Shown: in pieces, positions 16,795 through 19,977 of the stretch
How the letters are laid out: each line of letters opens with the position of its first letter
Numbering within the stretch: position 1 is the stretch's first letter
Origin: Armatimonas rosea
Lineage (GTDB): Bacteria; Armatimonadota; Armatimonadia; Armatimonadales; Armatimonadaceae
Assembly: GCF_014202505.1 (NCBI RefSeq)
Contig: NZ_JACHGW010000002.1
Location: 434,001 to 498,000 of the forward strand
DNA: 64,000 bases
Direction: 5' to 3'
Program-made: the position numbers and the translations under genes
The notes under the pieces: model-generated
The model's input: the letters and a program-made list of their open reading frames with translations, nothing else
The model's database searches: none
What the model was told of the DNA's origin: nothing

Positions 16795-16820
16795 GCCTGG
16801 GTAGGGCGGCGCTGTAAAGT

Positions 16821-16935
16821 GGCGGGGATTGGAAATCCCCGCCTCGGGTTTAGGAGCGTCCCGAGGACGCGCAGAGAGCCGTGCTCTCCGCGCCCACGGG
16901 GCGCTTCCTACGGGAGACGGGGATTTCCAATCCCT
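16821..16935. repeat. Intergenic hairpin element, copy D, with terminal inverted repeats
   Basis: A run of five hairpins: arms 16821-16828/16836-16843 (loop TTGGAAA), 16842-16848/16860-16866, GAGAGC 16874-16879/16883-16888, GCGCCC 16890-16895/16899-16904, and 16919-16923/16931-16935 (loop TTTCCAA). The two ends are inverted copies of one another over about 20 bp (GGGATTGGAAATCCCCG, with one later mismatch), like the ends of a MITE. The terminal loop TTTCCAA is shared with copy C. It lies between the divergent MFS and ECF sigma genes. Confidence 0.75.
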
Positions 16936-16949
16936 GGAGGTTGTAACGA

Positions 16950-17525
16950 ATGGTCGTGCTGGCTTGTACTAGGGGTGTCATGCAGCAGGAGGCGTCCGAT
17001 GAAGCGCTGATGGAGAGGGCGCAGAGCGGGGATCGTGAGGCGTTTGCCACGCTCTACGTGCGGCATCGTCCGGCGCTGGCGGCGTTTCTGACGCGCTTCA
17101 CGGGGAGTGCGACTCTGGCGGAGGACCTAGCCCAAGAGAGCTTTGTGCGCCTCTGGGAGGCGCGGGCGCGCTTTGAGACGCGGCGCAAGTTTCGAGTCTG
17201 GCTCTATGTTGCGGCGAAGAACCTGGCCCTCAATGCCCTCAAGGCACGGCAGACCCAGGCGCTCCCGGACAACTATGAGTCGGGGGAGCCGCCGCGCACG
17301 AGCCTGCTGGGTGAGGCGGTGGCCGAGGCGCTGCAAGCCCTGCCCGAGCCCCAGCGGCTGGTCTTGGTGCTGACGGTCTACGAGCAGTTTTCGCACAAAG
17401 AGGCGGCGGAGGCACTGGGCTGCACCGAGGTCAGCGCCCGCGTCCTGGCGTTCCGTGCGCGGCAGGCACTGAAGAAGCGGCTCGCGCCGCTGCTGGAGGG
17501 AGAGTATGAGACCGAGAGTATCTGA
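16950..17525 (+). CDS. ECF-type RNA polymerase sigma factor
   Basis: A 191-residue ECF sigma factor (182 if ATG 16980 is used). Region 2 reads DEALMERAQSGDREAFATLY ... AEDLAQESFVRLWEARARF, and region 4 is ALPEPQRLVLVLTVYEQFSHKEAAEALGCTEVSARVLAFRARQALKK with a clear helix-turn-helix. GGAGG (16936-16940) nine bases upstream supports ATG 16950, although it overlaps the right end of repeat D. The gene overlaps the following one-pass protein by 20 bases, so the partner is probably its anti-sigma factor or transducer. A third gene encodes an STN-domain protein. Confidence 0.93.
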   Translation: MVVLACTRGVMQQEASDEALMERAQSGDREAFATLYVRHRPALAAFLTRFTGSATLAEDLAQESFVRLWEARARFETRRKFRVWLYVAAKNLALNALKARQTQALPDNYESGEPPRTSLLGEAVAEALQALPEPQRLVLVLTVYEQFSHKEAAEALGCTEVSARVLAFRARQALKKRLAPLLEGEYETESI

Positions 17526-18132
17526 GGATGCCCTAGAGGCACTTCTGCACGAAGGCGATCCGGCACCAGCCCTAAATCCCGTCTCGGAAACGGAGAGAGT
17601 GGCGCTGCTTGCCCGCCTTTCGGAGGGGGATTGTGTGGGCGCTGCGCCTCGTCGCCGTCGGAGCGGGGCACCGGCAGTCGGGTTTATGCTCGTGTCGGCG
17701 CTGTCCCTTGCGATTTTTTGGCCGAGAGAGTCTCCTCATGTCGTGTCATCGCCTGTTTCGCCGAGCCCATCGCCTGCTTCTAGTACATCATCGTCTGGTT
17801 TTAAGTCAGCATCGTCTGATCACAAAGCTCCGATGTCTGATTTTATCGCTTCCTCATCTGCTCACAAGTTATCATCGTCTGATTTTGTTGCTTCATCGTC
17901 TGTTTCTCATACGTCATCCTCCGTTCGGAATCCATCATCACCCTCTCCCCAGCGTCAGAGAGAGGCACATGAGGCCCACTTGGTGATTGTCGCCGACGAT
18001 ACCTGCACGGTGGAGACACCTGTGCCGGTGACCGAGCACGTGACGATTATGGGGGATGAGACTAGTGTCGTTGCCGTTACAGAATCCATTGCCCCTACAT
18101 CTAATGAAAAAACGAGAGAGGTTTCCCTATGA
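17506..18132 (+). CDS. Single-pass Ser-rich protein, candidate anti-sigma factor or transducer
   Basis: A 208-residue protein overlapping the ECF sigma gene by 20 bases. The N-terminal 50 residues are cytoplasmic and acidic with a small helical segment; one membrane helix, APAVGFMLVSALSLAIFW, lies at about 55-72. The outside part starts with a Ser-rich region of ten 7-residue tandem repeats (about 81-150), then a 55-residue tail rich in Val and Thr. No zinc-binding anti-sigma motif is present, so the anti-sigma role is inferred only from gene order and topology. The next gene starts within its stop (ATGA). Confidence 0.7.
   Translation: MRPRVSEDALEALLHEGDPAPALNPVSETERVALLARLSEGDCVGAAPRRRRSGAPAVGFMLVSALSLAIFWPRESPHVVSSPVSPSPSPASSTSSSGFKSASSDHKAPMSDFIASSSAHKLSSSDFVASSSVSHTSSSVRNPSSPSPQRQREAHEAHLVIVADDTCTVETPVPVTEHVTIMGDETSVVAVTESIAPTSNEKTREVSL
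17747..17956 (+). repeat. Ten tandem 21-bp repeats encoding heptapeptides
   Basis: A 9-mer of type CATCGTCTG recurs exactly every 21 bases, at 17747, 17768, 17789, 17810, 17831, 17852, 17873, 17894, 17915 and 17936; the 12 bases between are variable, with related pairs (for example 17840 and 17903). Encoded heptads begin with SS or a close variant (SSSGFKS, SSSAHKL, SSSDFVA). The tract is AT-richer than its surroundings. Copy number could change by slippage without breaking the frame. Confidence 0.9.
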
Positions 18133-19262
18133 TCTATCCTCCTGCTGCTATCGCGGCTTATGTACTGACCCTGCCCCTGCAAAAGGCAGAGCAGCTGATC
18201 AGTACGGATTTCAATAACACACCGCTCCGCTCCGCCCTAGAGACTCTGTTTAAGAGTGCAGGTATCAAGAACTATGTGATCGATAACAAGGTGACGGGCA
18301 CGGTGACACTCAAGTCGAGGGAGCAGCCCTTCGATAAGCTCATGGTGCTGCTGCAGCGGGCGGCGACCCAGCCTTTTCTCTACCAAACAAGCAACGGTGT
18401 GGTGATTGTCAAGCCCTCTGTACAGACAAGCGCTGGTGGGGGAGGAGGGGGCGGTCAAGGGAGACTACCCACTATTCCTGAGGGGCCACTCTATCCCATC
18501 ACCGTGCGCTATCGAACTCTGGAGGAGCTGGAGGCGGTTCTCGGGGGGATCGTTCGGCTCGCCGACTCCGATCCCCTCTCGGAGAAGCCTGCTCCGGTTG
18601 CGAAGGCTCCGGCGGGAATAAATCCGATGGCAAATCTGGGCGGCGGCTTCGGCCCCGGCTTTGGTGGCGGGGGGGGCTTTGGTGGTGGTGGGCTCTCCGC
18701 GCGCCAGAGACGGCAGCTTAGCGGTGGGGGCTCGGGCGCGCTTCGGCCACCCGGGGTCGATGCCATCTATGCACTGGCCAATGGAACCCTCTTGGTGCAG
18801 GGAGACAAGGCGGAGATCGAGGAGCTTGCACGACGCCTGAAGACCATTGATGTTCCTACCCCAACCCTGGAGTGCCGGATTGAGGTGGTGGCTGTGGGGA
18901 CAGGCAAGGGACGACGCACCACGCTGCTCTCGGCGGTGGAGTCGGGCAAGTGTGGTAGGGAGATCACGGCGCTGAGCAAGTTCTCCGGGACACCCGCGCA
19001 GACATCACGGATCGAGGTGGCCCTTGTGGCGACACCGCTTGGCGATAACTACTTCGAGGTGGAGTCGCGCTGGGAGGCATCGGTTCCGCTCCTCGGGCCC
19101 CAGAAAGGCCAGCTCATTCGGCTGGAGAAGAGCTTCAGCAATACACGTCGGGTCCGGGCAGGCGAGATCGTGATGTTTGGTGGGGTGGTACTTAAGGAAG
19201 AACAAGGCGCGGTCAAAGGCGGGCAAGAGGTGCTCTTTTTTCTGACGCTCAAGCCGCTCTAA
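18129..19262 (+). CDS. STN-domain, secretin-like protein with Gly-rich insert
   Basis: A 377-residue protein. Residues about 18-95 form a secretin/TonB short N-terminal (STN) domain: ISTDFNNTPLRSALETLFKSAGIKNYVID ... VTLKSREQPFDKLMVLLQRA. A secretin N1/NolW-like unit follows (about 120-245), interrupted by a Gly-rich insert (160-200, GGGFGPGFGGGGGFGGGG). The C-terminal part, ending EVLFFLTLKPL, resembles the last strands of the secretin domain but is much shorter than in PilQ/GspD. The N-terminus may be a weak signal sequence. STN domains in FecA-type receptors talk to FecR-like regulators, so here it may signal to the upstream one-pass protein and the ECF sigma factor. Confidence 0.75.
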   Translation: MIYPPAAIAAYVLTLPLQKAEQLISTDFNNTPLRSALETLFKSAGIKNYVIDNKVTGTVTLKSREQPFDKLMVLLQRAATQPFLYQTSNGVVIVKPSVQTSAGGGGGGGQGRLPTIPEGPLYPITVRYRTLEELEAVLGGIVRLADSDPLSEKPAPVAKAPAGINPMANLGGGFGPGFGGGGGFGGGGLSARQRRQLSGGGSGALRPPGVDAIYALANGTLLVQGDKAEIEELARRLKTIDVPTPTLECRIEVVAVGTGKGRRTTLLSAVESGKCGREITALSKFSGTPAQTSRIEVALVATPLGDNYFEVESRWEASVPLLGPQKGQLIRLEKSFSNTRRVRAGEIVMFGGVVLKEEQGAVKGGQEVLFFLTLKPL

Positions 19263-19278: not shown

Positions 19279-19977
19279 ATGTGGCGATGGCAACAGAAAC
19301 TGATCCGGGTGGCGGTCTACACCGACACCGGCACGAGCAAGGACCTCTCGGCGGTGCTCAAGGCGCTGGCGGCGTTCCCCGAGCTGGCGGTAGAGACTCT
19401 CAAGGTCAAGGATATTCAGGCTGGGCGGCTCTCTGAGTTTGCGCTGGTGGTCTTCCCCGGCGGCTCGGGCGGCGGGGAGGGCAAGGCACTCGGGGACGAG
19501 GGGCGGGAAAAAGTGCGGCAGTTTGTCCGTGAGGGCAAGGGCTATATCGGGATCTGCGCGGGGGCGTATCTTGCCAGCAGCGACTATCCCTGGTCGCTGA
19601 ACCTGCTCAATGCCAAGGTCCTGGACAAGCAGCACTGGGCACGGGGCAATGGGACGGTCGAGATTCGCCTCTCCGACGACGGCAAGACGGTGCTCAAGCG
19701 TCCCGAGAGCGCGTCAGTGCGTATCGCCTACCGCCAGGGGCCGCTGCTGGCACCGGCGGGGAAGCCCGGTCTGCCGCCTTATAAAGAGCTGGCGACCTAT
19801 GTCGGGGAGGTGGCGCTCAAGGGCGCACCCAAGGGAGTCATGCCCGGCACGACGGCGATCGCGGCGGGGGAGTTTGGCAAGGGGCGCGTGCTCTGCTTCA
19901 GCCCGCACCCGGAGAAGACCCCCGGGCTAGAGGACTTCTTGCGCCACGCCATCGCCTGGATCCAGCAGGCTCCGTAG
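19279..19977 (+). CDS. BPL_N-type class I glutamine amidotransferase-like protein
   Basis: A 232-residue protein of the biotin-protein-ligase N-terminal family (class I GATase-like fold). The nucleophile elbow is GYIGICAGAYLAS with Cys93, the oxyanion strand is VVFPGGSGGG, and a C-terminal FSPHPEKTPG supplies a His/Glu pair as in GATases. No ligase or synthase domain is attached. Members are often annotated as hypothetical hydrolases; the substrate is unknown. The 3' end overlaps the convergent gene by 51 bases, a larger overlap than is usual here. Confidence 0.85.
   Translation: MWRWQQKLIRVAVYTDTGTSKDLSAVLKALAAFPELAVETLKVKDIQAGRLSEFALVVFPGGSGGGEGKALGDEGREKVRQFVREGKGYIGICAGAYLASSDYPWSLNLLNAKVLDKQHWARGNGTVEIRLSDDGKTVLKRPESASVRIAYRQGPLLAPAGKPGLPPYKELATYVGEVALKGAPKGVMPGTTAIAAGEFGKGRVLCFSPHPEKTPGLEDFLRHAIAWIQQAP

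Follow-up and report, generated by a model that had tools for sequence, protein, structure and literature searches.

We found a set of three overlapping genes in DNA of Armatimonas rosea (phylum Armatimonadota) encoding an ECF sigma factor, a probable anti-sigma factor with a single membrane pass, and a protein derived from a secretin, and we consider it probable (roughly 0.6) that these genes form a signalling set in which the barrel-less, secretin-derived protein controls the anti-sigma. The set lies within the window, by which we mean the whole stretch of 64,000 nucleotides that was analysed. Comparable sets recur in the phylum, and their recurrence suggests a previously undescribed family of cell-envelope sensors; a literature search, with most subscription papers outside its reach, returned no description of such sets. 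STN domains are found in secretins and TonB transducers alike, and to our knowledge the relation between their signalling and secretion uses has been left open so far. We also know of almost no studied regulation in Armatimonadota. The arrangement places secretin parts in the circuit of a sigma factor where no iron receptor is present, and does so in a little-studied phylum.

The three open reading frames, all on the forward strand (Table 1), were present as the original prediction had described them, with an overlap of 20 bp between the sigma and one-pass genes and an ATGA overlap between the one-pass and third genes, and the claimed order of sigma factor, one-pass protein and STN/secretin protein was borne out in the window. 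A fourth gene, BPL_N/ThuA-like and in the same direction, follows and possibly shares an operon with the set. Immediately 5' of the sigma gene lies an inverted repeat, imperfect and about 115-130 bp long (16815-16945); dozens of copies are dispersed through the genome (68 matches, both orientations counted). An Rfam scan of the region, this repeat included, gave no match.

Table 1. Features of the three-gene set and the gene that follows it, with positions in the window.
Feature	Position	Strand	Basis or remark
ECF sigma factor, 191 aa	16950..17525	+	Pfam and NCBIfam matches
Sigma region 2 (residues 35-101) and region 4 (residues 122-174)			
Single-pass membrane protein, 208 aa, probable anti-sigma	17506..18132	+	ORF, 20-bp overlap
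Predicted transmembrane segment, residues 53-71	17662..17718	+	Hydropathy, sequence
Ser-rich heptad repeat (21 nt), about 8 degenerate units, low GC3	17779..17946	+	Codon shuffles
Val/Thr-rich, beta-prone periplasmic tail, without the relatives' tail motif	17968..18090	+	Sequence, tail profile
N0-N1-reduced-secretin-domain protein, 377 aa	18129..19262	+	ORF, profile alignment, structure model
N0 / STN-fold domain, residues 23-96	18195..18416	+	PilQ matches, structure model
N1 domain, halves (residues 121-143 and 206-243) around a Gly-rich insert	18489..18857	+	PilQ alignments
Reduced secretin-type beta domain, residues 247-376	18867..19256	+	Alignments, model strands, RcpA match
BPL_N/ThuA-like glutamine-amidotransferase-fold gene	19279-19977	+	16 bp downstream of third gene

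The first gene encodes an ECF sigma factor as claimed. Its product matched Sigma70_r2 (PF04542; E 1e-17, 64 bits) and Sigma70_r4_2 (PF08281; E 8e-14, 52 bits) in Pfam and exceeded the cut-off of TIGR02937 in NCBIfam, and it is a small protein containing only sigma-70 regions 2 and 4, as expected of the ECF group.

The second protein is probably the anti-sigma factor. It gave no significant family match in Pfam or NCBIfam, and a structure model of the protein alone (mean pLDDT 45) was too poor for use. We observed a single hydrophobic segment with a mean Kyte-Doolittle value of 1.80, and the N-terminus is probably cytoplasmic because RRRR precedes this segment. The Cys/His zinc-finger motif of zf-HC2 was absent from the N-terminus, and no FecR domain was matched in this protein or in the anti-sigmas of four scanned relatives. 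The repeat-based outside part that had been predicted proved real: the 21-nt autocorrelation was 0.55 versus 0.34 in codon shuffles, with none of 20,000 shuffles as high, and peaks were observed at 21, 42 and 63 nt. GC3 was 0.49 for the whole gene versus 0.81 for the sigma gene, and in the repeat part (17737-17955) it fell to 0.36 versus 0.81-0.84 for the neighbouring genes, a composition that suggests a recent or unusual origin for this part.

The product of the third gene is a secretin paralogue of the PilQ type. Against a profile built from 40 Armatimonadota secretins (PilQ), residues 20-260 aligned with 98.4% probability, and a probability of 73% was obtained for the match of the last 47 residues to the closing strands of the secretin domain; in the secretin profile comparison the C-terminal part outscored all 200 shuffles. 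The predicted structure (mean pLDDT 60, with N0 and some strands at 70-90) shows N0, N1 and beta domains. Against known structures, the model matched the N0 domain of PilQ (Z 10.3), a Bacteroidetes anti-sigma (Z 9.6), the FecA signalling domain and PupR (Z 8.8 each), and secretin C-domains (Z about 8; the RcpA secretin at Z 7.8 over residues 244-377), although the C-domain match does not count as fully independent because the predictor's alignment contained three PilQ sequences. An STN domain had been claimed, and this held at the level of an N0/STN fold, seen in the FecA match and in weak matches to PF21305 (E 0.013) and the PilQ model TIGR02515 (E 2e-6), but Pfam STN itself was not reported even at E 10. 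There was also no Pfam match to the Secretin domain or to a TonB receptor, the C-terminal part being secretin-like. The signal peptide is weak, with no basic residue within the first 17 residues.

Alignment with the genome's own PilQ revealed that the third protein lacks three segments, namely the gate hairpin, the lip signature VP-LG and a stretch of early barrel strands (about 35 residues), leaving a beta domain of 133 residues versus about 235 in PilQ. The PilQ profile comparison and the N0 structure matches therefore show the label of a shortened secretin to be right, and because the gate and lip segments are absent the protein is probably not a pore. Were it instead a small outer-membrane secretin ring, serving like FecA as a receptor for a ligand or for pilus passage, the retention of N0, N1 and both ends of the beta domain and the model's matches to secretin C-domains would be expected. 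We consider this very unlikely given the missing gate and lip and the short beta domain, and some N0 proteins of other sets carry Gly-rich or zinc-ribbon tails and no secretin domain.

No relatives emerged when contigs were first scanned with the window protein. Comparable sets were observed at 15 other loci in six families of Armatimonadota, many of them in draft genomes. The window's order was kept in 12 of these (G037, G050, G141, G161, G124, G177, G061, G129, G145, G165, G042 and G055; the sigma gene is off the contig in G177 and was read at its end only in G165), while in three (G023, G006, G137) the N0 gene comes first, followed by the sigma and a zf-HC2-like anti-sigma. In G037 and G050 the gene order is that of the window, accompanied by N0, N1 and a shortened beta domain; searches in which this beta domain was the query added G141, G161, G177, G061, G129, G145, G124 and G165, and the neighbourhoods of N0 genes yielded G042 and G055 and the three N0-first loci. 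The sigma and anti-sigma genes abut or overlap in G129, G145, G124, G042 and G161. Both the order and the N0-N1-short beta architecture are common to the window and loci L222, L232, L257, L259 and L260. The third proteins of relatives that were scanned passed the Pfam STN cut-off, and two also passed that of Secretin_N. The zf-HC2 motif was present in the anti-sigmas of G042, G055, G023, G006 and G137 and absent from the one-pass proteins of L222, L232 and L259. Two further loci with a sigma gene near an N0 gene and no recognised anti-sigma (L050, L054) were excluded from the 15 sets. Sigma genes accounted for 9/319 at one to two genes from N0 genes (L050 included) versus 3/432 further away (p = 0.023), so the enrichment is only modest, and we give more weight to the tail motif described next.

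A periplasmic motif at the C-terminus, approximately YxYxxxDxxTGxxTxC followed by a strand, is common to the anti-sigmas of eight sets; it was absent from G006 and G137. A tail profile built from seven sequences gave 12 matches in 291 genomes, 11 of them beside an N0 gene. Five matches were outside the building set, and four of these adjoin an N0 gene, the fifth being an unrelated pilin-like protein. The pairing is near-exclusive, and because each genome holds tens of sigma candidates it is far from chance. This suggests that the tail and the N0 protein work together, and it makes a concrete binding prediction in nearly a dozen genomes.

We also observed in the phylum a large family of secreted N0 proteins that are short (about 250 residues) and have Gly/Met-rich tails (for example L040:8442-9137, L046:7193-7951, L048:7933-8685). 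Among the short N0 genes examined, 47 of 124 sit just upstream of a gene for a full PilQ-type secretin, so N0 proteins have a pilus-linked role without a sigma factor; the short protein is a possible pilus accessory, and we know of no pilus accessory of this type. The abundance of these proteins gives some room to the idea that the N0 protein of the sets is an output, a type IV pilus or secretin accessory switched on by the sigma factor and placed in the operon as its target. We judge this unlikely: no pilus genes lie beside the set at the sigma-linked N0 loci examined (G145 has a secretin nearby, on the other strand), and co-expression alone does not predict the pairing of tail motif and N0 gene.

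Several N0 loci had unusual contents. The N0 proteins of two sigma-linked sets (L107:6301-6930, L173:4184-6293) end in zinc-ribbon-like Cys motifs, which is unusual behind a signal peptide, and in L173 a pair of such genes lies in tandem. A secreted protein with three tandem N0 domains is encoded at L050:5804-7036, downstream of a sigma gene at a distance of about 430 bp. Genes for proteins with apparent TPR-like repeats, judged from sequence only, follow the anti-sigma gene in two sets of the N0 / sigma / anti-sigma order, each from a different family (L157:1954-2673, L191:779-2593).

The window set stands somewhat apart from these relatives. In the sigma tree, one clade (100/100) united eight sets having the shortened beta domain, and all 13 sigmas included from other sets grouped weakly (81/81), with the window sigma outside and paired (support 99/97) with a sigma whose gene lacks an N0 gene beside it; the window sigma thus belongs to a different ECF branch. 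No close relative of it was present in the single available genome of the same genus, and the tail profile did not match the window's one-pass protein. Homology of the window C-domain to that of the relatives was unsupported (hhalign 0.6-2.7%, HMM 2.4 bits), so we claim only the same architecture for both; the relatives' C-terminal part gave no significant match to the PilQ beta domain (3.7%). Given the other sigma branch, the missing tail motif and a C-domain whose homology could not be demonstrated, the window set is an independent or strongly diverged case of this arrangement, which weakens the window case more than the general phenomenon. The original prediction was staked in part on conservation of the gene order in relatives. 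The outcome was mixed: this stood for the 12 loci that keep the order, in other families, but not for the three N0-first loci, and the divergence of the window sigma and the lack of a close relative of it in the same-genus genome also count against it.

The same divergence, the low GC3 of the one-pass gene and the dispersed repeat directly upstream would fit three chance neighbours, or a recent shuffling, that form no single system in the window while real sets exist elsewhere. The 20-bp and ATGA overlaps argue against this, as does the match of gene order and N0-N1-short-beta architecture to sets with unrelated sigmas; sigma genes also make up only about 1% of same-strand genes further from N0 genes. 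We regard chance as quite improbable.

By its position and architecture, the third protein is best explained as a putative periplasmic regulator of the anti-sigma. We infer the sigma binding, the contact of N0 with the tail, the direction of control, the proteolysis and the signal as parts of one candidate mechanism. The cytoplasmic N-terminus of the one-pass protein would probably hold the ECF sigma inactive, and the repeat region may act as a flexible spacer across the periplasm, leaving the tail positioned for contact with the third protein. The latter, as a periplasmic secretin paralogue, would have kept N0 and N1 as docking domains and lost the pore gate and lip. The most likely partner of its N0 domain is the periplasmic part of the anti-sigma, whose proteolysis N0 may thereby control, a step modelled on the STN domains of TonB-dependent transducers and on the position of RseB. 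This genome, like all the control genomes, encodes a site-2 protease, whose presence allows regulated proteolysis and does not show it.

The predicted signalling built from secretion parts was upheld in part, by the recurring sets in six families and the tail motif beside N0 genes, while the other branch of the window sigma spoke against it. The separately grouping sigma with no close same-genus relative, the one-pass protein lacking the tail motif, the C-domain outside the relatives' profile, the weak signal peptide and the VreA deletion result given below all count against control of the anti-sigma by the third protein. More tentatively, and with doubt prevailing, secretin-derived barrel-less N0 proteins may form a phylum-wide ECF class, assembled more than once from different sigma lineages, in which they gate the anti-sigma and couple the state of the envelope or pilus to transcription.

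Comparison with known systems places the set between secretins and cell-surface signalling. PilQ and GspD are homologous to the third protein in N0, in N1 and in parts of the beta domain, but the gate hairpin and VP-LG signature of a complete secretin beta domain are absent, and the third protein is linked to a sigma factor rather than to pilus genes. The rpoE-rseA-rseB genes of Escherichia coli have the order sigma factor, one-pass anti-sigma and periplasmic regulator of the anti-sigma. This is the order of the window, with RseB in the position of the third protein, but the RseB fold is unrelated and no RseA or RseB family match was observed in the window. In Fec-type signalling, the STN domains of receptors bind the periplasmic domain of the anti-sigma (PMC7186176) and shield it from proteolysis when the signal is absent (PMC11637429). 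FecI-FecR-FecA and PupI-PupR-PupB resemble the window in having a sigma factor, a one-pass regulator and an STN-fold partner, but the window proteins are not FecR or FecA, and many relatives have a zf-HC2-like anti-sigma. The periplasmic part of the window regulator is a repeat with a short tail, whereas that of the Fec and Pup regulators is an STN-containing domain. With neither a FecR-type anti-sigma nor a TonB-dependent receptor bearing an N-terminal STN domain, the set is not of the Fec type. In the PUMA3 system of Pseudomonas aeruginosa (VreA/VreI/VreR), a barrel-less periplasmic STN protein, VreA, is encoded in a sigma/anti-sigma operon (PMC2729926), and its deletion left the regulon unchanged under phosphate starvation (PMC4971064). 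PUMA3 and the window share an ECF sigma, an anti-sigma and an STN protein without a TonB beta-barrel (PMC2729926, PMC4971064). VreA has a TolA/TonB-like second domain and is first in its operon, whereas the window partner, with its N1 and secretin-type domains, is last, and no FecR-type anti-sigma is beside it. VreA is the closest precedent for a barrel-less STN partner.
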